Source of the DNA: Clostridia bacterium
Lineage (GTDB): Bacteria > Bacillota > Clostridia > Oscillospirales > CAG-272
Direction: 5' to 3'
Length of the DNA stretch: 40,264 bases
Assembly (NCBI GenBank): GCA_017547655.1
Contig: JAFYPF010000028.1
Location: forward strand, 1 to 40,264
Shown: positions 4 to 37,586 of the stretch, in pieces
Numbering within the stretch: position 1 is the stretch's first letter
How the letters are laid out: each line of letters opens with the position of its first letter
Notes under the pieces: generated by a model
Database searches by the model: none
What the model saw: the letters and a program-made list of their open reading frames with translations, nothing else
Told to the model about the DNA's origin: nothing
Program-made: the position numbers and the translations under genes

Positions 4-205
4 CGAACCCCAAGGCTCCCACTTTGGGGGGAGCTGTCAGCGCAGCTTTCGTAGAAAGCTTGGCAAAGAACTTTGCCTCTCTGGTTTGTGCGAACCCCAA
101 GACTCCCACTTTGGGGGAGCTGTCAGCGCAGCTTTCGTAGAAAGCTTGGCAAAGAACTTTGCCTCTCTGGTTTGTGCGAACCCCAAGACTCCCACTTTGG
201 GGGAG
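4..205. repeat. Tandem dispersed repeat, two full units and a partial third
   Basis: Units begin with CGAACCCCAAG at positions 4, 91 and 177, giving periods of 87 and 86 bases. Each unit holds a short hairpin (CTCCCACTTTGGGGGAG type), then GCTGTCAGCGCAGC, then a CTTTCG...AAAGC stem and GGCAAAGAACTTTGCC. The third copy diverges after about 30 bases. Related units lie in the opposite orientation at 30790-31079. No open frame and no CRISPR-like spacers are present. This looks like a dispersed intergenic repeat family of gut Clostridia; its function is unknown. Confidence 0.8.
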
Positions 206-2710: not shown

Positions 2711-2742
2711 AAGTGTGTGAGCAATAGCTCACACACTTTTTT
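2711..2742. terminator. Bidirectional rho-independent terminator
   Basis: A perfect 12-base-pair stem, AAGTGTGTGAGC at 2711-2722 and its complement at 2727-2738, has an AATA loop. T residues follow on the plus strand and A residues precede on the left. It separates the regulator gene from the converging amidohydrolase gene, whose stop lies at 2741, and can serve both. Confidence 0.92.
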
Positions 2743-3553
2743 AGCTCTTTATTCCAAAAAGCTTTTCGGCATTTTTAGAAAGTATTTTTTCATTTTCTTC
2801 TTCGGTCAAGCCGATATTGAAAAATCTTTCAAATTCCAAAGTCGGCTCCCACATAGGATAATCGGTACCGAAAAGAACTTTATCAACACCATAGGAATAT
2901 ATTATTTTTTTAGCTTCCTCGCTGCTTATAGCATAGAGGCTTGACGAGCAATCAACATAAAGGTTAGGCAGTCCCGACAATTTATCCGCCGCTTCTTCCC
3001 ATACAGACCAACCGCCAAGGTGGGCGCCTATAACAGTCAATCCCGTATATATCTCCAAAATCGGCAAAAGTCTGTTCGGATTTGAAAAATCAAATCTGTG
3101 GTCGCCCGTATGCATAAGTATGGGCAAACCAAACTCTTCGCATTTCTCATATATCTTCAAACATCTGTAGTCATCTATCTTAAATTGCTGTATATCGTGA
3201 TGCAATTTTACGCCTTTCAGACCTAAATCAATAAGATGTTTAATATCTCCGTCAAGGTCTTCTGTGTCGGGGTGAAGTGTACCGAGTCCGGTAAACTTAC
3301 CATCGCTATTTTTCACGCTATCTGCAATAAAGTCGTTAATACCCCTAACTTGATGAGGTGTGGTCGCCACCGACTGCACAATATAGTGGTCGATACCAAC
3401 TTTATCCCCCACTTCAAGCAAACCGCTTACCGTTCCGGTTCCGAAAGAGTGTTCTCCATAGAAGCCATCTGTTCCCGCTACTGCTCTTGCCGCAATCTTT
3501 TCGGGATATATATGACAATGCGCGTCTATTACATAATATTTATTGTCAAGCAT
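2741..3553 (-). CDS. Amidohydrolase-2 family metal-dependent hydrolase
   Basis: A 270-residue TIM-barrel hydrolase of the amidohydrolase-2 family (decarboxylase/lactonase-like clade). Metal-site motifs are in order: H12-C-H14 in IDAHCHIYP, a histidine in ILMHTGDH near 148, a histidine in IGAHLGGW near 177, and the aspartate of LFGTDYPMW near 230. The substrate cannot be predicted. It is the last gene of the three-gene T-box operon, five bases after the TIM-barrel/acyl-CoA synthetase fusion, so it may act on an acid or acyl derivative made there (inference). It ends against the shared terminator at 2711-2742. Confidence 0.85.
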   Translation of the reverse strand: MLDNKYYVIDAHCHIYPEKIAARAVAGTDGFYGEHSFGTGTVSGLLEVGDKVGIDHYIVQSVATTPHQVRGINDFIADSVKNSDGKFTGLGTLHPDTEDLDGDIKHLIDLGLKGVKLHHDIQQFKIDDYRCLKIYEKCEEFGLPILMHTGDHRFDFSNPNRLLPILEIYTGLTVIGAHLGGWSVWEEAADKLSGLPNLYVDCSSSLYAISSEEAKKIIYSYGVDKVLFGTDYPMWEPTLEFERFFNIGLTEEENEKILSKNAEKLFGIKS

Positions 3554-3558
3554 TTCCT

Positions 3559-6057
3559 TTACGCTTTCTTAAGTCCTAACTTTTCAACAGCGTTTTCACG
3601 CATTTTGTATTTCTGTATCTTTCCTGCCGCGTTCATAGGGAACGAATCAACGAAGTCAATATATCTCGGCACCTTATGTCTCGCCATATGGTCAGCGATA
3701 TATTTCTTCATCTCGTCCTCGGTCATCATTTCTCCCTCTTTAAGAATAATACAAGCCATAATTTCCTCGCCGTATTTTTCATCGGGTACACCAATAACCT
3801 GAACGTCACTTACTTTAGGACAGGTATATATAAATTCCTCAATTTCCTTAGGGTAAATATTTTCACCGCCACGGATAATCATATCTTTAAGCCTGCCCGT
3901 TATTCTGTAGTTACCTTCGAGGGTACGACAAGCAAGGTCACCCGTATGCAACCAACCGTCAGCATCAATAGCCGCCGCAGTTGCTCCCGGCATCTTATAA
4001 TAACCCTTCATAACGTTATATCCCCTTGCAACAAACTCACCGTTTTCGCCGTCGGGACATTCTTCGCCCGTTTCGGGGTTAATGATTTTACATTCAACAT
4101 TAGCAAACGCAGAACCTACAGTTTCGGTTCTTACTTCAAGAGAATCGTAATAACTGCTCATAGTACAACCGGGAGATGCCTCTGTCTGTCCGTAAACAGA
4201 TACGATTTCTTTCATATTCATAACTTCCGTAGCTTTTTTCATAAGCTCCGCAGGGCAGTTTGAACCCGCCATAATACCTATTCTCATATATGAAAAATCA
4301 GTTTTTTCAAAATCGGGATGCTCCATCATCGCAATAAACATTGTAGGAACACCGTTAAATGCAGTTATATGCTCGTTGTGAACACACGCCAATGCGGGTT
4401 TAGGCGAGAAGTAGGGCAACGGATACATTGTTGTTCCGTGAGTCATAGACGCCGTCATAGAAAGTACCATACCAAAACAATGGAACATAGGCACTTGAAT
4501 CATCATTCTGTCTGCAGTGGACAAATCCATATGGTCGCCGATATACTTGCCGTTATTTACAACATTATAATGCGTAAGCATAACTCCCTTTGGGAAGCCC
4601 GTTGTTCCCGAAGTATACTGCATATTACATACGTCGTCTTTATCAACAAGAGCCGCCATTCGGTAAACTTCTTCAACGGGAACCTCGTCTGCTCTCTTCA
4701 AAGCATCGTTCCACGTCATACAACCCTTTTGAGTAAATCCAACAGTAATAACATTACGCAAGAAAGGCAACTTCTTGCTGTGAAGCGGTTTACCCGCTTT
4801 TGTTGTTTCAAGCTCGGGACAAAGCTCTGCTACAATTTCACCGTAACTAGTATCCTTTGAGCCCTCTGTCATAATAAGGGTATGCGTATCCGACTGACGA
4901 AGCAAATATTCAGCCTCGTGAATTTTGTATGCGGTATTTACGGTAACAAGTACTGCGCCTATTTTTACCGTAGCCCAGAATGCGATGAACCATTGAGGCA
5001 CGTTAGATGCCCAAGCGGCAACCTTGTCACCCGCTTTAACGCCGAGCGAAATAAGCGCTCTCGCAAACGTATCAACGTCATCTCTGAATTCGCTATATGT
5101 TCTCGTATAGTCAAGCGTAGTGTATTTAAATGCATATTGGTCGGGGAAATCTTCAACAAGTCTGTCAAGAACCTGCGAGAAAGTAAGGTCAATAAGGTCA
5201 TCCTTCTTCCAACTGAAACGGCCCGTATGCGCTCTGTTGTAGTAGAAATTCTTATCTCCCTTTGAAGTATCCGAAAACTGCTTCATATAGTGGCTAAACT
5301 GCGCAAAGATAATTTCCATATCGTCAATTTCTTCGCACCACATAGGATCCCACACCAAGGATATAAAGCCGTCGTAGTTAACGCTTCTCAAAGCGTTCAT
5401 AATATCTTTTATCGGAAGTTCACCCTCGCCCGCAAGACAATACTCTTTGTCTCCGTTTTCGAGCGAAATATCGTTATAATGCACATGCTTGATATATGCG
5501 CCGAGATTTTTTATTATAACTTCAGCATTTTTTTCTTCAACATAAGCTTCGGATAAATTCCACAATGCGCCAAGACTGTCTGAAGCAAAGCTTTCAAGCG
5601 TTGTGCGTAACGTTGCAGTATTACGGAACAATCCCGATGTTTCAAGCAAAAGCACTATTCCACGTTCTTCCGCTTCGAGCAATACTTCTTTTATAAACTT
5701 TTCAGCAATATATATTCCGTCAGCATTTTCCGAACGTGATTTTAAACGAATAAAAGGAATATGCAAAAACTGCGCTATTTCAAAACATCTTGCAATTTCA
5801 TTTTTTGCTTCTTCCGCTTCGGACTCAACCGAAATATCACTTACAATGTCGATACAAGGAATGGAAAGCTTTTTGTCATAAAGACTGCGCAACGTTGATG
5901 CCGCAGAATAATCGTGAAAAGCTCCGTCTCTATCGGTAAAAAGACGATTATTTATGTTGTGAAGCTCAATCCCCTTAAATTTCAGAGATTCGGCTATTTC
6001 ACAAAAATCACTAAAGGTACTGCTATGCCATCCCTTCGTTGAAAATGAAAGCTTCAT
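3559..6057 (-). CDS. Fusion of xylose-isomerase-like TIM barrel and AMP-forming acyl-CoA synthetase
   Basis: An uninterrupted 832-residue frame with two enzymes. Residues 1-265 form a sugar-phosphate isomerase/epimerase-type TIM barrel: E139 in LLLET, H191/H193 in HVHYND and the GEGEL loop at 210-214 are present, but the usual second-site D and H are replaced in LWNLSEA. Residues 285-825 form an ANL-superfamily acyl-CoA ligase. Its P-loop is YTSGTTGFPKG at 481-491, followed by VYGQTEASPG, GWLHTGD, the hinge GRLKDMIIRGGENIYP, and a C-terminal AAGKIQK with the adenylation lysine. The ligase half resembles medium- and branched-chain fatty acyl-CoA synthetases. It is the second gene of the Leu T-box operon, 19 bases after the LeuA-like gene. 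The start follows GGAG. What the barrel does is unknown. Confidence 0.9.
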   Translation of the reverse strand: MKLSFSTKGWHSSTFSDFCEIAESLKFKGIELHNINNRLFTDRDGAFHDYSAASTLRSLYDKKLSIPCIDIVSDISVESEAEEAKNEIARCFEIAQFLHIPFIRLKSRSENADGIYIAEKFIKEVLLEAEERGIVLLLETSGLFRNTATLRTTLESFASDSLGALWNLSEAYVEEKNAEVIIKNLGAYIKHVHYNDISLENGDKEYCLAGEGELPIKDIMNALRSVNYDGFISLVWDPMWCEEIDDMEIIFAQFSHYMKQFSDTSKGDKNFYYNRAHTGRFSWKKDDLIDLTFSQVLDRLVEDFPDQYAFKYTTLDYTRTYSEFRDDVDTFARALISLGVKAGDKVAAWASNVPQWFIAFWATVKIGAVLVTVNTAYKIHEAEYLLRQSDTHTLIMTEGSKDTSYGEIVAELCPELETTKAGKPLHSKKLPFLRNVITVGFTQKGCMTWNDALKRADEVPVEEVYRMAALVDKDDVCNMQYTSGTTGFPKGVMLTHYNVVNNGKYIGDHMDLSTADRMMIQVPMFHCFGMVLSMTASMTHGTTMYPLPYFSPKPALACVHNEHITAFNGVPTMFIAMMEHPDFEKTDFSYMRIGIMAGSNCPAELMKKATEVMNMKEIVSVYGQTEASPGCTMSSYYDSLEVRTETVGSAFANVECKIINPETGEECPDGENGEFVARGYNVMKGYYKMPGATAAAIDADGWLHTGDLACRTLEGNYRITGRLKDMIIRGGENIYPKEIEEFIYTCPKVSDVQVIGVPDEKYGEEIMACIILKEGEMMTEDEMKKYIADHMARHKVPRYIDFVDSFPMNAAGKIQKYKMRENAVEKLGLKKA

Positions 6058-6076
6058 TTTTTACATTCTCCTTTCA

Positions 6077-7459
6077 TTAAACATTATGCTCTTCGTAAAC
6101 AATCTTGTTTACTGCGCTTATATATGCTCTGATACTTGCGCCTATAATATCGGTAGAAATACCGTTACCCGAATAAAGCTTGCCGTCAAAACGAAGCTTA
6201 ACAAGCGCCGAGCCAACAGCTTCTTTACCCTCCGTAATTGACTGAATCTGAAAATCATCAAGCTCATAACGATGACCGATAATTTGTTCGATAGCCACAA
6301 ATGCCGCATCAATAGGACCGTCGCCTATCGCAACTCCCTGCAAGGTTTTACCGTCTCTGATGAGGGTTATTTGCGCACTTGCACTGATTATATTTCCGTT
6401 ATTTATAACATAGTTCTCAAGCTTGTATGAATCGGGAACCTGTAAAGCAACGGTTGCTATAATTGCATCCAGCTCTTTTGCGCCGACACTTCTCTTTTCG
6501 GCAACACGGCACACTTCCTCATGTACACGTTTATTATCTTCATCGGAAAGGTCGTATCCGAGCTTGGCTACGGCAGCCGACACTGCATTTATATCATCTT
6601 TTGCATCAAGTCTTATTCCGTTTTCTTCAACTGATGATACAGAAACGTTCTTTTCCATCTTCTTGTCAGAGCATATCCAGCCAACCTGACTCAATATACG
6701 GTGCATTTCTGTATAACTAGTTCCTGCATAAAAGCCGTAATTGTCGCCGCAATCCTTTACCATTCCAGCAAAAGCATCAAAGGGAACACCGTCTCCGCCT
6801 ATTGACGTTTTTACAACCGAAACGCCATCTCTTACAGCCATAATAGCTTCTGCAGATGCAAGACCATTCTTATTTGAACAGCCAACACCCACATCGACTC
6901 CCGCTTCCTCAACTATTTTCTTGCCAAAGTTTGCAAAATCATCTGGCATCATTCCCGCAGCGCTGTCACACACGGAAACGGTTTTTGCACCTGACGCTAC
7001 TGCCGTTTTTATAACTTCGATAAGAAAGTCAGCTTCAGCTCTTGTTGCATCAACCGCACAAAACTCAACGTCAGGACAAAGCGACACTGCTTTTTCTACG
7101 GCATACTTTACCCACTCATTCATTTTTTCGGGTTTTTTATGCATAAAGTATTCCATACCGACCGCCGACATTGGAACTTCAATACGTATTCTCCCCTTAT
7201 TTGCAACACTCAAAGCCGCCGCCGCATCGACAATTGACTGCTCGTTACTTCCCGCCGCAACAGATATAACACTGTTCTTAACAAAAGAAGAGGCTGTACG
7301 CACAAGGAGAATATCCGTTCTCGCATTTGTTATTTCGGGCAATTCTATTACGTCAACTTTTAGCTTTTCAAGCTGTCTGATTATTTCAAGTCTTTCTTTG
7401 AAGCTAAAGGTCTTGTCGCTTCTGCAAAGCGTTTTGTCTGCAATTTTAATTTGTTTCAT
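6077..7459 (-). CDS. 2-isopropylmalate synthase-like protein with a degenerate metal site
   Basis: A 460-residue protein with an HMGL-like TIM barrel (about 1-265), a linker, and a C-terminal LeuA allosteric dimerisation domain (about 335-460, with GKTLQGVAIGDGPIDAAF). The frame is intact, but the catalytic signatures are altered. The canonical D-T-T-L-R-D-G becomes D8-K-T-L-C-R-S, and the metal-binding H-x-H of the VHCHNDLGLA segment becomes G193-C-S195. It may have lost Claisen-condensation activity or may use different chemistry. I chose the ATG at 7459 because the ribosome site GAGAAAGGG lies just upstream; a longer frame to 7480 would place that site inside the gene. It is the first gene after a T-box leader with a leucine codon, which fits a leucine-linked role. 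Confidence 0.85.
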   Translation of the reverse strand: MKQIKIADKTLCRSDKTFSFKERLEIIRQLEKLKVDVIELPEITNARTDILLVRTASSFVKNSVISVAAGSNEQSIVDAAAALSVANKGRIRIEVPMSAVGMEYFMHKKPEKMNEWVKYAVEKAVSLCPDVEFCAVDATRAEADFLIEVIKTAVASGAKTVSVCDSAAGMMPDDFANFGKKIVEEAGVDVGVGCSNKNGLASAEAIMAVRDGVSVVKTSIGGDGVPFDAFAGMVKDCGDNYGFYAGTSYTEMHRILSQVGWICSDKKMEKNVSVSSVEENGIRLDAKDDINAVSAAVAKLGYDLSDEDNKRVHEEVCRVAEKRSVGAKELDAIIATVALQVPDSYKLENYVINNGNIISASAQITLIRDGKTLQGVAIGDGPIDAAFVAIEQIIGHRYELDDFQIQSITEGKEAVGSALVKLRFDGKLYSGNGISTDIIGASIRAYISAVNKIVYEEHNV

Positions 7460-7504
7460 TATAAAACACCCTTTCTCCAATGCCGTATTTATTCGGCAAA
7501 AATA

Positions 7505-7774
7505 AAAATAAAAAAACCCGAAGTCAATTTTGACTTCAGGGACGAAATTATCGCGGTACCACCCTGTTTACCGAAAAAAACGGTCAACTCAATAAAACTC
7601 AAACAAGTCTTTTGCCATGATAACGGGACACTCCGTAACCGCTTACTCATCATACTTTCTGCGATTCTGCTCAGGAACGAGACTTTCGAAACTCTTCACA
7701 CCGTCTTGCACCAACCGACAGCTCTCTGAAATGAAGTTATGAATCGAAATAATTCCTTCGTTGCATTTTAAATA
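7505..7774 (-). promoter_or_regulatory. T-box leader, predicted tRNA-Leu (CUC specifier)
   Basis: Read on the minus strand, the leader holds a Stem I with AGAGAG and GGTTGGTG elements. The specifier candidate CTC is at 7681-7679, nine bases ahead of the end of GTTCCTGAG, the same spacing as the codon in the Bacillus glyQS leader as I recall it. The T-box antiterminator core AGGGTGGTACCGCG is at 7565-7552. The terminator hairpin at 7541-7517 (CCCTGAAGTC / GACTTCGGG) is followed by a T run at 7516-7510. The variable base after TGG is T, matching A73 of tRNA-Leu. It should switch on the LeuA-like operon when tRNA-Leu is uncharged. Confidence 0.93.
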
Positions 7775-23956: not shown

Positions 23957-23984
23957 AAAAGTACGAGTTTTGCTCGTACTTTTA
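23957..23984 (-). terminator. Terminator of the VOR operon
   Basis: GTACGAG (23961-23967) pairs with CTCGTAC (23973-23979), extended by A/T pairs on both sides. On the minus strand it follows the last gene of the seven-gene operon. Confidence 0.85.
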
Positions 23985-23990
23985 CTTTTT

Positions 23991-24521
23991 TCAGTAGTTA
24001 TAACCGGTGTCAATCGCCTTAAGGTTAATTTCAAACATATCTGCACGCTTTGCCGATACTACTTTTGACAAAGCAGCTTCCATATCGTCGTGTGTTACGG
24101 CGCCTGATTCTTTTATAAACTTACCCATCATTATCATATTCGCCAACGTAGGAGCACCTATCTCCTGCGCAAGCTTTGTTGTGGGTATGTAGAACACCTT
24201 AACGTCAGTTCTTTCTACCTTTCTTTCGATAAGAGTAGAATCAACGAAAATCATACCGCCGGGTACAACCAAATCTTCATACTTATCAAGTGAAGGAAGA
24301 TTCATAGCAATAAGAACGTCGGGATTAGATACAATAGGAGAGCCAATCGGTTCATCGCTGAGTATTACGCTGCAGTTCGCTGTGCCGCCTCTCATTTCAG
24401 GACCGTATGAAGGCAACCAGCTTATCTCCTTGCCCTCAAGCATACCTTTGTATGCCATAAATTTTCCTGCAAAAAGAACGCCCTGACCGCCAAATCCTGC
24501 TATAAGTGTATTGGTTGTCAT
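23991..24521 (-). CDS. 2-oxoacid:ferredoxin oxidoreductase, gamma subunit
   Basis: A 176-residue subunit of the POR/VOR/KOR family gamma type. The opening [19 protein letters not shown] is the family signature, followed by [22 protein letters not shown]. The gamma subunit supports CoA binding and complex assembly in the cytoplasmic complex that interconverts 2-oxoacids, CoA and ferredoxin with acyl-CoA and CO2. It is the last of four adjacent subunit genes (delta-alpha-beta-gamma in transcription order), two bases after the beta gene. Substrate assignment rests on the alpha subunit and on context. Confidence 0.93.
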
Positions 24522-24523
24522 AA

Positions 24524-25276
24524 TTATTCAGCCTCCTTTGTTGCGCTTCTGTCCTTGTATACGCCGAGAGGATAATAAGGAATCATCTTTTCGTCAACCC
24601 ACTTAAGTGCATCAACGGGTGTCATCCCCCAGTTTGTAGGACACGTCGAAACAACTTCAACAAGCGAAAATCCTTTATTGTTTATCTGATTTTCAAACGC
24701 TTTCTTTATAGCCTTCTGCGCTTCTTTAATATTCTTAATATTATTTACCGCAACTCTTGCAATAAACTCGGGACCGTCAAGAGTAGAAAGCATTTCGCTT
24801 ACCTTTACGGGATAACCTGCAGTTGAAACATCACGGCCATAGGGAGATGTCTGTGTTACCTGACCGGGAAGAGATGTAGGAGCCATCTGTCCGCCTGTCA
24901 TACCGTATATCGCATTGTTTACGAAAATTATTGTAATATTTTCATTTCTTGTTGCCGCATGTACTGTTTCCGCCATACCGATAGAAGCCAAATCGCCGTC
25001 GCCCTGATATGTAAAAATAACGTTTTCGGGCATAGCTCTCTTCAATCCCGTAGCAACTGCGGGAGCACGTCCGTGAGCCGCCTCTACCATATCACATGCA
25101 AAATAATTATATGCCATAACTGCGCAACCAACGGGCGCTACACCTATTGTCTTTCCTTCTATACCAAGGTCGTCAATTGCCTGTGCAACAAGGCGGTGAA
25201 TGATACCGTGTGTGCATCCGGGGCAATAGTGAAGCTCGGCATCTGTTAAGCTTTTAGGCTTTTCAAATACTACCAT
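24524..25276 (-). CDS. 2-oxoacid:ferredoxin oxidoreductase, beta (TPP-binding) subunit
   Basis: A 250-residue thiamine-diphosphate subunit. The [18 protein letters not shown] opening has a cysteine pair, of which the cluster-binding set is partial. [14 protein letters not shown] and the TPP/Mg motif [22 protein letters not shown] ending in [16 protein letters not shown] follow. The ATG at 25276 overlaps the stop of the alpha gene in TAATG and follows GGAGG, so the pair is translationally coupled; a longer frame to 25357 is not supported. Together with alpha it forms the decarboxylase/acyl-transfer core. In this complex the reaction can run toward reductive carboxylation if reduced ferredoxin is available. 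Confidence 0.93.
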
Positions 25277-26337
25277 TATTTTTCGCCTCCTGCCATCTTC
25301 TTTATAGCTTCGAGAACCTGCTCGGGAGTGGGAATCATACCACCAACGCGATTGCAAAGCTCAACGGGTTTCTTACATTCTGTCGCAAGCTTAACGTCCT
25401 CAATCATCTGTCCCATTGACAATTCAACGCTGAGGAATCCCTTTACCTTTTCTGCCGCTTCTGCCAAAGGCTTCTTGGGGAACGGCCAAAGTGTAATCGG
25501 TCTTATCATACCAACCTTTATACCCATATTTCTTGCCGCAATTACTGCATTCTTGGAAACACGGGATGCAATACCAAATGCAACAACGCAATATTCCGCG
25601 TCTTCCATCATAAATGATTCGTATCTTGCTTCGTTTTCTTCGATAGCTTTATATCTTTCAAATCTTTCGATATTTGTCTTTTCAAGCTCTTCGGGGAGCA
25701 AATAGAGAGAGTTTACTATGTTGTGCTTTCTCTTCATCTGTGTTCCCGTAACAGTCCAATCCTTTTCTGTAGGCTTGTAATCTACCTCGGGCAATTCTAC
25801 GGGCTCCATCATCTGTCCCATCGTTCCGTCTGCAAGAAGCATCGCGGGAACTCTGTATTTTTCTGCAAGCTCAAAAGAAAGAATAGTCATATCAGCCATT
25901 TCCTGAACCGATGCGGGTGCAAGTACTATCAAATGATAGTCGCCGTGGCCGCCGCCTTTCGTTGCCTGAAAATAGTCTGACTGAGAAGGTTGAATACCAC
26001 CAAGACCGGGGCCGCCTCTCTGTACGTTTACTATAAGCGCGGGAAGGTCAGCGCCTGCTATATACGAAATGCCTTCCTGCTTGAGCGATACGCCGGGGCT
26101 GGAAGATGACGTCATAACACGCATACCCGTACCTGCTACGCCGTACACCATGTTAATTGCGGAAATCTCACTTTCTGCCTGAAGAAATACGCCGCCTATC
26201 TTGGGCATTCTCTTTGCCATATAAGCCGCAATTTCAGTCTGGGGAGTTATAGGATATCCGAAGTAGTGACGGCAGCCTGCCTTAATTGCCGCCTCAGCAA
26301 TCGCTTCGTTGCCTTTCATCAATACCTTATCTGCCAC
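25276..26337 (-). CDS. vorB: 3-methyl-2-oxobutanoate:ferredoxin oxidoreductase-type alpha subunit
   Basis: A 353-residue alpha subunit of the 2-oxoacid:ferredoxin oxidoreductases (POR_N and POR_II domains). It has [33 protein letters not shown] near the start, [41 protein letters not shown] and [16 protein letters not shown]. This 350-residue form is what annotation pipelines call VorB, i.e. branched-chain 2-oxoacid specific, though such names are not proof of substrate. I place the start at GTG 26337, after GAGGTGA, inside the junction with the ferredoxin gene; the frame extends to 26358 without a site. It is the third of the four complex genes in order delta, alpha, beta, gamma. Confidence 0.9.
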
Positions 26338-26347
26338 AAAATTCACC

Positions 26348-26554
26348 TCACTTTTCAACCGTTATAACGCAGTCGGGACACATTGTTGCGCAGAATGCAC
26401 AAGCTATGCACTTTTCCTGATCTGTTATCTCGGCGGGAGAATGTCCCTTTTTGTTAATCTTGTCTTTTGCAAGTACTATAATCTTCTTGGGGCATACGTC
26501 AACGCAAAGTCCGCAACCCTTGCAAAGATCAGTCGCAAAGCTAACTTTTTTCAT
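26348..26554 (-). CDS. 2x[4Fe-4S] ferredoxin, delta subunit of the oxidoreductase
   Basis: A 68-residue ferredoxin with two complete cluster motifs, CKGCGLCVDVCP near 11-22 and CIACAFCATMCP near 49-60. Two clusters relay electrons between the TPP site and external ferredoxin. GGAGC precedes the ATG. It lies 10 bases upstream of the alpha start and forms part of the complex rather than a free ferredoxin, judging by context. Confidence 0.93.
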   Translation of the reverse strand: MKKVSFATDLCKGCGLCVDVCPKKIIVLAKDKINKKGHSPAEITDQEKCIACAFCATMCPDCVITVEK

Positions 26555-26589
26555 ATAGATTGCTCCTATCTGAATATTATTATTTTTTA

Positions 26590-27255
26590 TTAAAACAGTT
26601 TCTCCTGTAATTTCAGACGAAAAACCTTATTGTTTCCAACAGCCTTTAATACATCGTCGGCAATCGATTCCTTAACCGCAGTATACATCACTTCGGTATT
26701 CGTCAGCTTCGCCAAATGCTCTGTCATCTCAACCGTTCTTATAACGTCTTCGGCAGTCGTCTCTTCTCCGAGGTTTGAGTTGTTCACTATCTTTGTAAAC
26801 TTTAATTTAGATGCATATTCGATTTCTCTAAAAACCTCGTATGCTTCTTCAACCGTCGTCGTCAACGGTCTGTAAAAGTTTACAGTAAAAATCATCTCAT
26901 AGTCGTTATCTTCTTTGAGTCTCGGCACAAACCGCCCCAAAGCCAAAGCGCCTCTGTCATCTCCGCCAAGGTCAATTATAACCTGTCTGTCCTTTCGGTC
27001 AAAAAGACCGTAAGCCGCAGAGGGCAAGCTCGGCAAATCAACACTTGTGTTTGCAAACGGTAATGATATAAGCTCTATATCATTCTTTGCAAACAACTCT
27101 TCGCTGTCCTTTGTACGAAAGTACGGATTTACTATATCAAGGTCTGCTATGCTTACCTTATAATCCATCTCACGAAGCATCAAAGCATAGTTCACGGCAA
27201 GATTGGTCTTTCCGCTTCCATAGTGTCCCGAAAAAATCGTTACTCTCTTCATCAT
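26590..27255 (-). CDS. MinD/ParA-type P-loop ATPase in the VOR operon
   Basis: A 221-residue nucleotide-binding protein of the deviant-Walker (SIMIBI) class. The P-loop GHYGSGKTNLAVNYA lies at about 9-23, followed by DLDIVNPYFRT. The switch region is VIIDLGGDDRGALALGRF. Length and motifs suggest a MinD/CobQ-like ATPase; DNA-partition or septum roles are unlikely in this setting. It lies between the nitrilase gene and the ferredoxin gene of the oxidoreductase and may serve cofactor or Fe-S delivery to the complex (inference). A rather distant GGAG site precedes the ATG at 27255. I know of no proven function. Confidence 0.8.
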   Translation of the reverse strand: MMKRVTIFSGHYGSGKTNLAVNYALMLREMDYKVSIADLDIVNPYFRTKDSEELFAKNDIELISLPFANTSVDLPSLPSAAYGLFDRKDRQVIIDLGGDDRGALALGRFVPRLKEDNDYEMIFTVNFYRPLTTTVEEAYEVFREIEYASKLKFTKIVNNSNLGEETTAEDVIRTVEMTEHLAKLTNTEVMYTAVKESIADDVLKAVGNNKVFRLKLQEKLF

Positions 27256-27287
27256 TATATTCTAATGCTCCTTTCTTAACGGATTTA

Positions 27288-28088
27288 TTATTTTACCTCA
27301 TAAAGTTCGGGGCGCCTGTCAGCAAACACGTTTATTGTGCTTCTTATGTTTTCTATAACACCGAAATCAAGTTCAGCCGATATAATATCCTCGGTCTCAC
27401 CCGCAGACACAAGTTCTTCACCCCAAGGATCAAATATACGCGAACACCCCGAGTTAACGTTTCTACCCGCCTTGCCGCAGCTGTTACAGCAACAAACGAA
27501 CATCTGATTCTCAATCGCTCTTGCCTTTGCCAATGCGTTCAAATGCGCAACTCTGACAGATGGCCACTGTGTAACCACAAACAAGCAGTCAAGTCCCATC
27601 ACCGTCATCGTTCTGACAAACTCGGGAAATCTTATATCATAACATATTATAACACCACAGCTCTTCCCGTCAAGAGTAAATTTGCAAATATGATTACCCT
27701 TTGCAAAATGTTTATCCTCTTTCATCGGCGAGAAAAGGTGCGTCTTGTCATATTCAGCGATACAGTTACCCTCTCTGTCAAACACGTAAGAGGTATTATG
27801 CATCTCATCATTTTTTACGTTTGCAACGCTTCCCGCAACAATATTAACATTCAATTCCTTTGCAAGTCCGCCAATAACCCTCTTTGTCTTCTCTCCGTCC
27901 TTGTCGCAATAATCCTTTATAGACTCTTCGGGAAAAAATCCCGTATTCCAAGTCTCGGGCAATACGATAACGTCAGGGTTATTCTTTGCAGCATCACGTA
28001 TAAGCTTTTCCGCTTTTACAAAGTTCTCACTGCTTGAGCCAAAAGCCATATCCATTTGTATACAGGATACTTTCAACTTATTTGACAT
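27288..28088 (-). CDS. Nitrilase-superfamily amidohydrolase, omega-amidase-like
   Basis: A 266-residue carbon-nitrogen hydrolase with the full catalytic triad: E in VIVLPETWNTG, K in EYDKTHLFSPM, and C in GVIICYDIRFPEFVR. The closest family type is omega-amidase (NIT2/YafV). These enzymes hydrolyse 2-oxoglutaramate and similar amides formed when glutamine-type transaminases aminate 2-oxoacids, which would fit an operon making branched 2-oxoacids (inference). The ATG at 28088 follows GAGGTGGAG; the frame extends to a GTG at 28097 that overlaps that site. It starts directly behind the stop of the acyl-CoA synthetase gene at 28099. Confidence 0.85.
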   Translation of the reverse strand: MSNKLKVSCIQMDMAFGSSSENFVKAEKLIRDAAKNNPDVIVLPETWNTGFFPEESIKDYCDKDGEKTKRVIGGLAKELNVNIVAGSVANVKNDEMHNTSYVFDREGNCIAEYDKTHLFSPMKEDKHFAKGNHICKFTLDGKSCGVIICYDIRFPEFVRTMTVMGLDCLFVVTQWPSVRVAHLNALAKARAIENQMFVCCCNSCGKAGRNVNSGCSRIFDPWGEELVSAGETEDIISAELDFGVIENIRSTINVFADRRPELYEVK

Positions 28089-28098
28089 TATCTCCACC

Positions 28099-30387
28099 TC
28101 ACAGCTTGTTTCTTTGTATCTTTCCGCTTACCGTCTTTGGCAACTCTTCCTTAAATTCAACTATTCTCGGGTACTTATAAGGCGCAGTCTTTTCTTTTAC
28201 GTACTTCTGAATTTGTCTCTTAAGCTCTTCGGAAGGCTCTGTTCCCTTTACGAGAACAATGCTTGCCTTAACAACCTGACCTCTTACCTCGTCGGGAGTT
28301 GCCGATACACCGCACTCGAGAACGTAAGGCAATTCCATAATAACGCTTTCTATTTCAAACGGTCCTATGCGATAGCCGGAAGATTTGATAACGTCATCAA
28401 CTCTGCCAACGTACCAGAAGAAGCCATCTTCATCTTTCCACGCAACGTCGCCCGTATGGTAAAATCCGTCGTGCCATACCTCTTTGGTCTTGGCAGGATC
28501 GTTGTAATATCCGGTAAATAATCCGCAAGGAGCTCCGTTCTTAACATTAACAACAATCTCGCCCGTTTCACCAACAGGAACAGACTTTCCGTCTGCATCT
28601 ACTATATCAACGTCGTATACGGGTGTTGCTCGTCCCATTGAACCGATCTTATGAGGCGCACCTACCATATTACCAATAATCATTGTGCTTTCGGACTGAC
28701 CAAAGCCTTCGATAATCTGCAAACCCGTCGCCTTTTCAAATTGCTTGTAAACCTCGGGGTTCAACGCTTCGCCCGCCGTTGTCATATGCTTTACCGATGA
28801 AAAATCGTATTTTGAAATATCTTCTTTAATAAGCATACGGAGCATTGTAGGAGGTGCGCAGAACGTTGTTATGTGGTGCTTTGCAAACATAGGCAATATT
28901 TCAGCCGCATTAAATCTGTCAAAGTCGTAAACAAACGTAGCCGCCTCGCAAAGCCACTGACCGTATAATTTACCCCACATGGACTTCGCCCAACCCGTAT
29001 CGGATATTGTAAAATGCAATCCGTCGGGATCAACGTTGTGCCAATACTTCGCTGTATGGAAATGTCCTAATGCATATTTATAGTTGTGCGCGGCAATCTT
29101 CGGATAACCCGAGGTTCCCGACGTAAAGAACATCAACATCAAATCTTCGCCGCAAGGTGAATCTTCTTTTCTGTCAAAATGAGAACTGTAAAGAGTATAT
29201 TCCTCGTCGAACGTTCTCCACCCCTCACGTTCTCCGTTTACAATAATCTTATGCTTGAGTGTCGGGCTCTTTTCTGCCGCCATTTCAATCTGATGAGCTG
29301 TATCGCCGTCTGCGGTACAAATTACACCGCAAACACCCGCAGAGTTAAATCTGTATTCAAAATCATGCTCAACGAGCTGATTTGTTGCAGGAATAGCTAT
29401 TGCACCAAGCTTGTTAAGTCCAAGCATTGCAAACCAGAACTGATAATGTCTCTTCAAAACGAGCATTACTCTGTCGCCCTTCTTAATGCCAAGCGACTTG
29501 AAGTAGTTTGCGCACTGAGCAGAAGCACGTTTCATATCCTTGAAAGTGAATCTTCTCTCGGTCATATCTCTTGATATGTGCAACATCGCAAGCTTGTCGG
29601 GTTCCTTTGCCGCCATTTCATCAACAAGATCAAATGCAAAGTTGAATTTCTCTGTATTCTTAAAGGTTATCGAAGTAGGCGTTCCCTTTTCGTTCTCGAC
29701 AACATCAATAAACTTCTTATATATTCTGTCCTTCGTATCCTTTTCAACAACACTATTGCTCTTAATAAGCTTTGAGGGAGTAAGCTCGGGAATAGGTTCG
29801 CCTGTCGGGTTAAGTACTATCGCATAAAACGAGCAGTCCTTGCCATTAACCGCAATCATACCGTGAGGTGTAGTACTGTTAAAATAAATACTGTCGCCGG
29901 GGCCGAGTATCTCTCTGTGTTCACCTATCTGAACAAGCAAGTTACCTTCTATAATAATATCGCATTCCTGTCCCTCGTGGCTAGTCAGCTCAATATCCTT
30001 TGACTGCGCCTCTTCGTCATATACGCTCTTAACAAACAAAGGCTCTGCTATACGATTCGTAAACGAATACGCCATATTAAAATACGTCATACCGTGAGCT
30101 TGAGATACCTTTTGTCCGGTTCCCGCTCTTGTTACGGTATAAGATTTAAGTCTCGGCGAATAACCCTCGATAATATCAGTTACGTTTACGTTCAAAGCAA
30201 GCGCGCATCTGTAAATAAATGCAAAGTTCAAGTCGCTTTCTCCCTTTTCGCAAAGGATATACTCCTCAACAGTAACGCCTGTCTTTTGCGCCATTTCCTC
30301 GGCGCTTAACGCCTCAAGCTCGCGAAGCTCTTTAATACGCCCCGCCATTTCTCTTATTTTGTAGTCAAGTCCTGTCATTTGTTGCAT
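28099..30387 (-). CDS. XRE helix-turn-helix / cupin / acyl-CoA synthetase fusion
   Basis: A 762-residue, three-part protein. Residues 14-75 form an XRE-type helix-turn-helix (RIKELRELEALSAEEMAQKTG, then EEYILCEKGESDL). Residues 100-195 are a cupin, with HEGQECDIIIEGNLLVQIG and PGDSIYFNSTTPHGMIAV, including a histidine that could bind metal or ligand. Residues 245-762 are an AMP-forming acyl-CoA synthetase: P-loop FTSGTSGYPK at 421-430, GFGQSEST, YHTGDVAWKDEDGFF, VKSSGYRIGPFE and a C-terminal TVSGKIQRNKL. It looks like a combined acid-activating enzyme and DNA-binding regulator. The ATG at 30387 follows GGAGAA; the longer frame to 30483 runs through the T-box leader and is wrong. It is the first gene after the Val T-box. 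Confidence 0.92.
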   Translation of the reverse strand: MQQMTGLDYKIREMAGRIKELRELEALSAEEMAQKTGVTVEEYILCEKGESDLNFAFIYRCALALNVNVTDIIEGYSPRLKSYTVTRAGTGQKVSQAHGMTYFNMAYSFTNRIAEPLFVKSVYDEEAQSKDIELTSHEGQECDIIIEGNLLVQIGEHREILGPGDSIYFNSTTPHGMIAVNGKDCSFYAIVLNPTGEPIPELTPSKLIKSNSVVEKDTKDRIYKKFIDVVENEKGTPTSITFKNTEKFNFAFDLVDEMAAKEPDKLAMLHISRDMTERRFTFKDMKRASAQCANYFKSLGIKKGDRVMLVLKRHYQFWFAMLGLNKLGAIAIPATNQLVEHDFEYRFNSAGVCGVICTADGDTAHQIEMAAEKSPTLKHKIIVNGEREGWRTFDEEYTLYSSHFDRKEDSPCGEDLMLMFFTSGTSGYPKIAAHNYKYALGHFHTAKYWHNVDPDGLHFTISDTGWAKSMWGKLYGQWLCEAATFVYDFDRFNAAEILPMFAKHHITTFCAPPTMLRMLIKEDISKYDFSSVKHMTTAGEALNPEVYKQFEKATGLQIIEGFGQSESTMIIGNMVGAPHKIGSMGRATPVYDVDIVDADGKSVPVGETGEIVVNVKNGAPCGLFTGYYNDPAKTKEVWHDGFYHTGDVAWKDEDGFFWYVGRVDDVIKSSGYRIGPFEIESVIMELPYVLECGVSATPDEVRGQVVKASIVLVKGTEPSEELKRQIQKYVKEKTAPYKYPRIVEFKEELPKTVSGKIQRNKL

Positions 30388-30411
30388 AAAATCATTCTCC
30401 GTTTCCGGGAC

Positions 30412-30704
30412 AAGAAAAGCACTCATCCCAAAGTTAATGACTTTGAGACGAGTGCTGATTGTCCTATACACCCGCGGTACCACTCAAATTGCGATTATTT
30501 TTAACCGCCACTCTCGGAATCCAACAATTCCTATGTCTTGACGCGACAATTACGGGAAGATTCTACTTGCCTTTTTCGGCTTTCTTTCTTCCGGCTCGGA
30601 AGCTACAAACACAAAAAATTCTTACACGACTCACACCAACACGTCGTCTCTCTGGGTAAAAATACACTTTATGCCCTCTTCGTCGAAGCCTTTATTATTT
30701 AATT
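30412..30704 (-). promoter_or_regulatory. T-box leader, predicted tRNA-Val (GUA specifier)
   Basis: On the minus strand, Stem I carries AGAGAG and GTGTTGGTG elements. The specifier candidate GTA is at 30606-30604, followed by G and nine bases to the end of CCGAG, the same register as in the Leu leader at 7505-7774. The antiterminator core is GAGTGGTACCGCG. The variable base after TGG is T, matching A73 of tRNA-Val. The terminator hairpin AGCACTCGTC.../...GATGAGTGCT at 30456-30418 is followed by TTTTCTT. The start codon of the first gene lies 25 bases beyond it. Confidence 0.9.
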
Positions 30705-30710
30705 ACGAGT

Positions 30711-30739
30711 ATTATAACACTGTATCTTTTTTTTGTCAA
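30711..30739 (-). promoter_or_regulatory. Promoter of the Val T-box operon
   Basis: On the minus strand TTGACA (30739-30734) and TATAAT (30716-30711) are 17 bases apart, both consensus. Confidence 0.93.
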
Positions 30740-30789
30740 GTAAATTGCAAAATTTTCTGTTATTTCCCTATTGTTCGGGAATATAACAA

Positions 30790-31079
30790 AGATAATACGG
30801 GAAATCTCTCCTCCAGTCTCGCTTTCGCTCGACAGCTCCCCAAAAGCGGGAGCCTTTGGGTTTGTACAAACCCGCAAGGCAAGGTTTCTTTACCTACTTT
30901 CTTTAGGAAAAAGCCCCTTCCGTCAACCTTCGGTTGCCACCTCCCCCATTGGGGAGGCTTTAGGTTTGTACAAATATTATTAAATAGCACAAACCAGAGA
31001 GCCAAGGTTCTTTGCCAAGCTTTCTTCCTTAAAGAAAGCGGAGTTTCTTTGCCTACTTTCTTTCAAGAAAGTAGGTAGG
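30790..31079. repeat. Dispersed repeat region, opposite orientation to 4-205
   Basis: This 290-base gene-free stretch carries at least two related units ending in the same GGGTTTGTACAAA / AGGTTTGTACAAA phrase. Each has a CTCCCC...GGGGAG-type stem and TTCGGTTGCC or CGCTCGACAGC boxes. Read on the minus strand they match the 4-205 units (CAAACCCAAAGGCTCCCGC... against CGAACCCCAAGACTCCCAC...). Arrays of the CTTTCTT/AAGAAAG type near 31010-31075 end at the chromate-transporter gene. No coding frame is convincing. Confidence 0.65.
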
Positions 31080-36524: not shown

Positions 36525-37586
36525 TCACATAACTCTCTCTATTATGTCAAAACATATACGAGGCAGCTCTCTCAAAATTACAAAACACTCTTTTCTCACA
36601 GGAGACATTTCTCTATATACGGGAAGCTCGTAGGTGCACTCTACGATTCGCTCAAATTTAGCTACCGCATCTATTTTTGATTGTTTTGAACCTTTCGAAT
36701 TGATTGCATTTACAAGATCATTTCCTGCTTCATATACCCAAGGAAAATCTTCCTTGTATACTGACAAAACAATCAGAATATTATATGGGAATATATCCAT
36801 TTTTTCACGCATTGAAAACCACAAATCCTCTATAATCATCGGATTGATTTTTTTTGAAGAACGCCGCATCTCAAGAGAATGGTGTTTATCTATTCTTTCA
36901 ATAACATCATCAACCTTTTTATTAACTTGATCAATGTTACCATAGAGCTTCGAATCTGTATTTCCTAACAAGCGCTGTGTATTACGCGATGTTTCCAAAA
37001 GCTCTTCAAGAATATTAGGATCCAAATGCAAACTCGATTCTGCCTCTACCCCATCCACTTCTTCTGAAGAAGCTTCCTGAAGTTCGATGATACTCTTTTC
37101 GAGATCGGGATAGCAAAGTTCAAAAGCTTTATCTAATCTCGTAGTGCTAAGAGAATTTCCCGTTGCTTTGTTAAGGGTTTCAATTAGTCTTTTCATATCC
37201 TCTTTTGAAAAAGAAGTTGCCTGAAACTGTGATATCGGAGATCCCTTTAGATCTGAAGGCTTTAAACCAAAAAGCAAAGGAGCAACATAACTATTGTCTA
37301 TAGATTTTGACAATGCACCCGCTTCAAAGTTTAACCACTGGGAATTAAGGTTATCTTTTGTCACACATATCAAGCCAAAACTTGACTCTTTCAATTCTTG
37401 CGCTACATCTGTATTCCAACGAGCACCTTTTTCAATATCTTCAGAAGAAACAAAGGGATCAATTGCTTGGATTACAGTAGGTAGCCAATCCCTAAAAAGC
37501 AAGGCTATTTTTTTGCTGCATTCACCGGACCAGCTAATGAAAACCTTCATGATATCACTTCCTTTTTCTTTATAGTCAAAGACCAT
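36525..37586 (-). CDS. Stand-alone TIR-domain protein
   Basis: A 353-residue protein. Residues 13-145 form a bacterial TIR domain: MKVFISWSGECSKKIALLFRDWL, then FGLICVTKDNLNSQWLNFEAGALSK, where W-x-x-x-E supplies the glutamate expected in NAD+-cleaving TIR enzymes. Residues 180-353 include a possible coiled region (NTQRLLGNTDSKLYGNIDQVNKKVDDVIERI) and a helical C-terminus without a recognised domain. The ATG at 37586 follows a perfect AAGGAGGAAATAT. The internal ATG at 37550, at the TIR start, also has a usable site. A TIR NADase or signal-producing role in phage defence is plausible, but no partner (such as a SIR2-type effector) is adjacent. The gene lies in an accessory island. Confidence 0.88.
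   Translation of the reverse strand: MVFDYKEKGSDIMKVFISWSGECSKKIALLFRDWLPTVIQAIDPFVSSEDIEKGARWNTDVAQELKESSFGLICVTKDNLNSQWLNFEAGALSKSIDNSYVAPLLFGLKPSDLKGSPISQFQATSFSKEDMKRLIETLNKATGNSLSTTRLDKAFELCYPDLEKSIIELQEASSEEVDGVEAESSLHLDPNILEELLETSRNTQRLLGNTDSKLYGNIDQVNKKVDDVIERIDKHHSLEMRRSSKKINPMIIEDLWFSMREKMDIFPYNILIVLSVYKEDFPWVYEAGNDLVNAINSKGSKQSKIDAVAKFERIVECTYELPVYREMSPVRKECFVILRELPRICFDIIERVM

Follow-up and report, generated by a model that had tools for sequence, protein, structure and literature searches.

The 40,264-nucleotide stretch analysed here, called the window below (positions 1 to 40,264 of contig JAFYPF010000028.1, assembly GCA_017547655.1, from a Clostridia bacterium), carries on its minus strand a T-box leader RNA followed by seven genes that encode, among others, a fused acyl-coenzyme A (acyl-CoA) synthetase and a four-subunit VorB-type oxidoreductase. 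The locus is proposed to be an operon for valine supply that uncharged tRNA-Val switches on, a reading to which a probability of about 0.86 is given. The genome to which the window belongs (G000) is a draft of 1.39 Mb in 36 contigs with a completeness of 84.6%.

The T-box leader and the operon behind it

The leader region comprises the following features.

30711..30739, minus strand: promoter TTGACA, 17 nucleotides, TATAAT, with TG before the -10 hexamer (12 of 12 consensus positions matched)
30441..30695, minus strand: T-box leader RF00230 (covariance-model match; covariation in 43 homologues)
30593..30690, minus strand: Stem I of the T-box (helices 15-17/119-121 and 24-27/112-115 of alignment A2, with 98.4 and 100% of cells paired)
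30604..30606, minus strand: specifier codon GUA, valine (specifier column of the Rfam alignment)
30473..30484, minus strand: T-box core AGUGGUACCGCG with UGGU bulge (Rfam alignment and homologous leaders)
30442..30488, minus strand: antiterminator, helices UUUGAG/CUCAAA and CGGGUG/CACUCG (pairing in homologues; fold)
30418..30456, minus strand: intrinsic terminator (attenuator) hairpin of 17 pairs (-25.3 kcal/mol alone)

In a permissive scan of positions 30350-30800, the leader (30441-30695, minus strand) aligned with the entire RF00230 model (positions 1-219 of 219; 80.3 bits, E 6.3e-18) and placed GUA in the specifier column, so that the valine T-box called by the first-pass annotation, which was made from the letters alone, is borne out by the model search it had proposed. 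A whole-genome search returned 12 T-boxes in G000, the operon leader among them (E 4.4e-18). Ten of these 12 were aligned as an internal control for the specifier column, which reads GUC at valS, ACC at thrS, UUC at pheS, UCC at serS, and AAC at aspS, the identities of all five genes lying over the NCBIfam cut-offs. The codon fits the product for the first four, and an aspartyl-tRNA synthetase gene under an asparagine codon is a known pattern that reflects the indirect route to Asn-tRNA. The column further reads CUC at a LeuA-like gene (LeuA match below cut-off), UGG at a trpB-like gene, and UUC at a gene resembling 3-deoxy-D-arabino-heptulosonate 7-phosphate synthase; the latter two names come from translations alone, and the partial sequences of these two genes gave no NCBIfam match at 1e-40.

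The 47-nucleotide antiterminator stretch folds at -11.8 kcal/mol, and the 83-nucleotide stretch surrounding the attenuator folds with z = -4.0. Because both structures use positions 30454-30442, the terminator and the antiterminator are mutually exclusive. For analysis of covariation, near-copies more than 90% alike and the locus L116 (described below) were excluded from the homologous leaders, 82 were kept, and 43 of the 82 were aligned. RNAalifold predicted 53 pairs on these 43 leaders, 30 of them with two-sided changes, and 44 pairs were used for counting after exclusion of the other nine. Standard pairs occupy 96.7% of cells, cells with two-sided changes number 283 compared with a shuffled mean of 82.7, and the covariation score is 0.483 compared with 0.240 for shuffled and at most 0.136 for slid alignments, the tested structure having been derived from the same alignment, which biases these values in its favour. 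The antiterminator, which was taken from the window sequence and assessed separately, is paired in 98.2% of 513 cells, mostly with invariant letters, and the terminator in 97.5% of cells. The leader is selected as RNA, and a chance resemblance to a T-box is ruled out by the covariation across homologous leaders.

A promoter match of 11 or 12 of 12 positions lies within 90 nucleotides upstream of 60 of the 82 homologous valine-class leaders, the best match in 82 shuffled stretches being 10. The first-pass annotation had assigned one promoter and one terminator to the operon; the perfect promoter and the terminator behind the gamma-subunit gene are present, and a single promoter is likely rather than certain, since further promoter-like matches, two of them with 11 of 12 positions, sit inside operon genes.

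The operon genes and their terminator are as follows.

28099..30387, minus strand: fused helix-turn-helix (HTH, Xre type)-cupin-AMP-forming acyl-CoA synthetase of 762 residues, proposed isobutyryl-CoA synthetase ACS1 (HTH_3, Cupin_2, AMP-binding, AMP-binding_C)
27288..28097, minus strand: nitrilase-family carbon-nitrogen hydrolase (PF00795, E 4e-47)
26590..27255, minus strand: P-loop ATPase, weakly NUBPL/ParA-like, candidate Fe-S maturation factor (PF10609, 3.9e-6, just under gathering)
26348..26554, minus strand: oxidoreductase delta subunit with two 4Fe-4S motifs (CxxCxxCxxxC twice; motif and family matches)
25276..26337, minus strand: oxidoreductase alpha subunit VorB (NF005507, 562 bits, cut-off 399)
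24524..25279, minus strand: oxidoreductase beta subunit, binding thiamine pyrophosphate (TPP) (PF02775, 4e-22; GDG...NN motif)
23991..24521, minus strand: oxidoreductase gamma subunit (PF01558, 1.8e-37)
23957..23983, minus strand: operon terminator, 11-pair hairpin with T tail, behind the gamma gene

All seven genes thus belong to the families claimed for them from the letters, the alpha subunit at 562 bits on the VorB model, and neighbouring genes are closely spaced or overlapping on one strand, also as claimed. The delta, beta, and gamma subunits score below the relevant NCBIfam cut-offs, the Fe-S motifs lying in delta and the TPP motif in beta. The synthetase most likely starts at the ATG at 30387 and the alpha subunit at the GTG at 26337. 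The HTH-cupin part of the synthetase, which has no solved relative at 1e-5, may provide a second control; no palindrome that could serve as its operator is visible in 29 promoter-anchored upstream stretches, in which the promoter and A-rich positions are seen. The nearest solved relative of the P-loop ATPase is found only at E 0.0097, and weak CbiA and ParA matches occur in 20 of 20 aligned members. Since the P-loop gene (26590-27255 in the window; also loci L203-L222) lies ahead of the oxidoreductase genes whether a T-box is present or not, its product is suggested to be a maturation partner, which may, judged from sequence, load the Fe-S clusters of the oxidoreductase.

Specifier codons and the isoleucine-class twin

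When the synthetase protein was used as query at E 1e-3, hits came from 93 of 97 related genomes, a generous figure in which other synthetases are counted too. In a separate collection scan with 589 relatives confirmed, 39 of the 80 loci listed by name have titles that refer to gut samples of hoofed animals. Of 218 HTH-cupin sites examined, five identical copies were dropped, and a T-box core was found upstream of 175 of the remaining 213. The specifier site was located via the letters behind the codon, independently of the codon itself, and the 175 leaders carry 83 ATC (isoleucine), 76 GTA, 9 GTC, and 1 GTG codons, together with 6 that are unresolved or misread; the codon of L163 was entered by hand as GTC (the matrix read TGT, the other reading GTC). 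RF00230 re-read the GTC codon in all four loci tested (L164, L178, L187, and L198). A misread specifier is ruled out, since homologous leaders have GTA, GTC, or GTG at this site and those of the sister class have ATC.

The protein tree was built from 157 of the 213 sites, 56 with translations shorter than 650 residues having been left out. A valine clade of 76 proteins (support of 100 in the Shimodaira-Hasegawa-like approximate likelihood ratio test) holds 60 members with GTA, 8 with GTC, 1 with GTG, 6 without a recognised T-box, and 1 with an unresolved codon, and all 70 ATC proteins fall outside this clade (one GTC being hand-set). The specifier codon class follows the protein tree. Locus L116 (G095:C5) is a split HTH-cupin gene that lies outside the valine clade and has a T-box with GTC, and for this reason the valine specifier may have arisen twice.

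G000 holds both kinds of gene, namely, the valine-class gene of the window and a stand-alone isoleucine-class gene at G000:C24:103449. The latter, an HTH-cupin-synthetase at G000:C24:103120-105716 (L063), has an AUC T-box, with a Mem_trans-type transporter gene just upstream. An ATC site occurs on the same stretch in 53 of the 86 fetched loci with a GTN site, generally as tandem genes with a T-box each. The window switch is therefore one of a pair of valine and isoleucine switches, a pairing absent from the first-pass annotation.

Twelve alignment columns separate the two classes under the set thresholds. Eleven fall between query residues 15 and 225, within the HTH-cupin part and linker, and the remaining one belongs to the catalytic domain:

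28987..28989, minus strand: Ala467 codon (residue 471 of the 766-residue query), class-diagnostic by codon class comparison

All 69 valine-class proteins have Ala at residue 467, and all 70 isoleucine-class proteins have Gly there. The nearest solved relative of the synthetase is 3etc (E 5e-185), the 580-residue chain of which aligns with the synthetase part alone, from query residue 248 onward, and the Ala467 column aligns with the Gly of WGK in this structure. We take 3etc to be MacsMa of Methanosarcina acetivorans, with which the motif numbering agrees. PMC10455477 describes MacsMa as preferring 2-methylbutyrate and Trp259 as critical in its acyl pocket. The published position of YHTGD, 431-435, fixes the chain numbering, so that the diagnostic column corresponds to residue 255, four before Trp259. 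The additional methyl group of Ala relative to Gly could offset a substrate shorter by one carbon.

Valine pathway genes and gene neighbourhoods in relatives

The 97 genomes were compared under family cut-offs as 19 with a valine-class gene and a GTA leader and 78 others. None of the 19 possesses ilvC, ilvD, or ilvB over cut-off, compared with 41, 41, and 47 of the 78 others (Fisher p 1e-5, 1e-5, and 5e-7, respectively, with genomes treated as independent). Among genomes at least 90% complete, each of the three is found in 0 of 12 valine-class genomes, compared with 37 (ilvC), 36 (ilvD), and 43 (ilvB) of 65 others, and with the window's genus counted once ilvC stands at 0 of 15 (p 8e-5). None of the three exceeds its cut-off in G000 or its four congeners, the most complete of which reaches 97%. 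A partial synthetase in G015, a genome with ilvC and ilvD, was considered as a counter-example and rejected, since its 80% identity to an ATC member assigns it to the isoleucine class.

These results bear on the possibility of valine catabolism, in which the oxidoreductase would convert 2-oxoisovalerate to isobutyryl-CoA for reduced ferredoxin and the synthetase would run in reverse or recycle CoA. Such a role would suit both the amino acid fermentations for which VorB-type enzymes are best known and the occurrence, in relatives, of P-loop-oxidoreductase operons that lack a T-box. T-boxes, however, switch genes on when the cognate tRNA is uncharged, and a valine T-box would activate degradation at uncharged tRNA-Val; furthermore, an AMP-forming synthetase consumes ATP and would be a poor exit route. 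Because of the valine T-box and because ilvBCD were not found in genomes with the valine-class gene, a degradative role is judged very unlikely.

Gene neighbourhoods were counted in the 59 valine-class loci whose downstream sequence extends for 8.5 kb or more. In 43 of them the P-loop gene is accompanied by the genes of all four subunits of the oxidoreductase, and a branched-chain aminotransferase gene lies on the same strand in 36, with TIGR01123 passed by all three aminotransferases tested from such loci. With the aminotransferase nearby, the route from isobutyrate to valine would be complete at those loci. By contrast, a motif scan of 20 P-loop-oxidoreductase loci, chosen for a VorB in genomes that lack the valine-class gene, detected no T-box core before the module. 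For 14 of the 20, an Rfam search at gathering score returned a single T-box, which lies behind the gamma-subunit gene of L206; this locus runs into the end of its contig on the upstream side, and a leader scoring as low as that of the window's operon would escape a gathering-score search. The nitrilase gene, found in eight of the 59 loci and adjoining the aminotransferase gene in four of these eight, is an optional operon member. The earlier argument that a T-box favours synthesis is strengthened by the three valine codons, the lack of ilvBCD over cut-off in the 19 genomes, and the aminotransferase in 36 of the 59 loci.

The operon could alternatively supply primers for branched-chain fatty acids, isobutyryl-CoA being passed to FabH as with MbcS in Staphylococcus aureus and the oxidoreductase also feeding isobutyryl-CoA. 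The top NCBIfam match of the synthetase is MbcS (NF047394), with 432 bits against a cut-off of 850, which leaves it outside that equivalog. According to PMC10026030, both isobutyrate and 2-methylbutyrate are activated by MbcS, which thereby serves lipid synthesis. Control by tRNA-Val, the linked oxidoreductase, and the aminotransferase linked in relatives nevertheless indicate an amino acid as the product, and a role in primer supply is judged very unlikely.

A further possibility, compatible with valine supply, is that a single oxidoreductase under the valine switch is used for isoleucine and perhaps leucine synthesis as well. G000 has a single VorB over cut-off, together with the isoleucine-switched synthetase and an operon behind a leucine T-box; none of the five genomes of the genus has leuB over cut-off, and the ATC site found on the same stretch in 53 of the 86 loci with a GTN site is in line with shared use. 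Such sharing is regarded as possible but rather doubtful.

Several observations weigh against a valine-supply operon. The bit score of its leader, 80.3, is lower than the curated gathering score of RF00230, 93, and a gathering-score scan of the whole window reported only the T-box at 7535-7770 and not the operon leader. Ala467 could be a mere clade marker, because eleven other columns also separate the classes, all of them before the catalytic domain. No oxidoreductase lies within 9.8 kb at 16 of the 59 valine-class loci, and the oxidoreductase module also occurs without a T-box. The genomes G011, G013, and G072 possess ilvC and ilvD, and in them the oxidoreductase follows an isoleucine-class gene that has an ATC leader; the oxidoreductase is therefore not tied to the loss of ilvCD. 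In G027, G039, and G056, also with ilvC and ilvD, an isoleucine-class gene stands before the oxidoreductase with no recognised T-box. The oxidoreductase by itself is no marker of the switch. Concerning the last step, IlvE_II exceeds its cut-off in one of five genomes of the window's genus, not in G000 nor in three of its four congeners, and the class IV aminotransferase of G000 is closest to D-amino-acid transaminases, below cut-off. The genomes compared are drafts, including the 84.6% complete G000; G046 has three ilvD fragments below cut-off, and 33 of 90 genomes have neither the valine-class gene nor ilvD. On a LepA tree of 90 of the 97 genomes, in which 13 of 87 inner branches are starred, genomes with the valine-class gene cluster together (13 changes of this label compared with a shuffled mean of 17.4; 1 of 500 shuffles as low), so that the genomes are not independent, whereas the ilvD label resembles shuffled labels (27 changes compared with a mean of 28.9; 138 of 500 as low). 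The poor resolution of this tree leaves only three supported pairs for a kinship-corrected test of the exclusion between ilv genes and the valine-class gene, and kinship may be a contributing cause of that pattern.

Proposed route and relation to known systems

In the proposed mechanism of the valine-supply operon, valine scarcity would allow uncharged tRNA-Val to pair with the GUA specifier and, through its 3' end, with the UGGU bulge. The bound tRNA-Val would stabilise the antiterminator, and RNA polymerase could then continue into the operon. The fused synthetase would convert environmental isobutyrate to isobutyryl-CoA, which the VorB-type oxidoreductase, with reduced ferredoxin and CO2, could carboxylate to 2-oxoisovalerate, and an aminotransferase, presumably also encoded in G000, would yield valine. 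Synthesis of valine from isobutyrate under tRNA-Val control, as suggested by the first-pass annotation, is supported by the specifier, the enzyme classes, and the linkage, with the direction of the oxidoreductase and the substrate of the synthetase being the presumed elements. The sister synthetase with the AUC T-box very likely acts in the same manner on 2-methylbutyrate for isoleucine. It is further considered fairly probable that this group of Clostridia, known mainly from gut drafts, gave up the acetohydroxy-acid pathway and makes valine and isoleucine from fermentation acids via twin tRNA-switched synthetases, in which the specifier (GUN or AUC) and one residue beside the acyl pocket (Ala or Gly) switched together and the HTH-cupin part acts as a second, protein-level control.

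T-boxes are known before aminoacyl-tRNA synthetase genes and ilv-leu operons. The present leader resembles those of Firmicutes (RF00230) in Stem I with its specifier, the AGAGA region, the UGGU bulge, and the mutually exclusive terminator and antiterminator; it differs in that the specifier-flanking AGUA and GAA letters of the consensus are absent and in that it would govern reductive carboxylation of a fermentation acid. Valine and isoleucine were reportedly shown by Allison and colleagues, in isotope work, to be formed from branched-chain acids in rumen anaerobes. The same chemistry, from acid via acyl-CoA and 2-oxo acid to amino acid, is proposed here, and whereas that work was physiological, genes, an operon, and a switch are now named. 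MacsMa possesses Gly where the valine class has Ala, and MbcS serves lipid synthesis. With VorB-type oxidoreductases (NF005507) the operon shares an alpha subunit well over the cut-off and the four-subunit layout; it differs in that control by a T-box is shared with a cognate acyl-CoA synthetase. No paper linking T-boxes to isobutyrate or to an oxidoreductase of this kind was found in searches of open-licence papers, as judged from listings; PMC11365079 deals with acetyl-CoA carboxylation and not with valine. T-boxes, the oxidoreductase family, and the chemistry were each already known, and their combination appears to be the new part.

If valine is supplied in this way, the genes, operon, and regulator behind an old physiological observation in rumen microbes would be at hand, and amino acid supply would be linked to cross-fed isobutyrate. 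Auxotrophy calls based on ilvBCD would then score possible isobutyrate-to-valine producers as valine auxotrophs. The pairing of codon and residue offers a cheap and direct test of enzyme specificity, and the RNA switch provides genetic evidence on the direction of a reversible enzyme.

Other loci were also noticed. In the window, positions 2741-7770 (minus strand) hold a leucine T-box (CUC) followed by genes for a divergent LeuA-like protein, a TIM barrel fused to an acyl-CoA synthetase, and an amidohydrolase; this may be a further unusual route to an amino acid. At G000:C24:40596-49563 (L083), a tyrosine T-box (UAC) precedes genes for an acyl-CoA synthetase, a Na+/solute symporter, IorA, IorB, a PaaK-like ligase, an ACT-like protein, and an aminotransferase, which looks like an aromatic counterpart of the valine operon; a T-box was seen in 8 of 21 orthologous loci (all 21 motif-scanned and 12 also searched with Rfam), always with UAC. 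The start of the protein encoded at window positions 36525-37586 (minus strand) resembles, by eye, a TIR-type domain and had no NCBIfam match at 1e-15. Finally, a Gut-1 RNA match (RF01706, 60.1 bits) lies at positions 8-83 (minus strand) of L009, near a tryptophan T-box locus.

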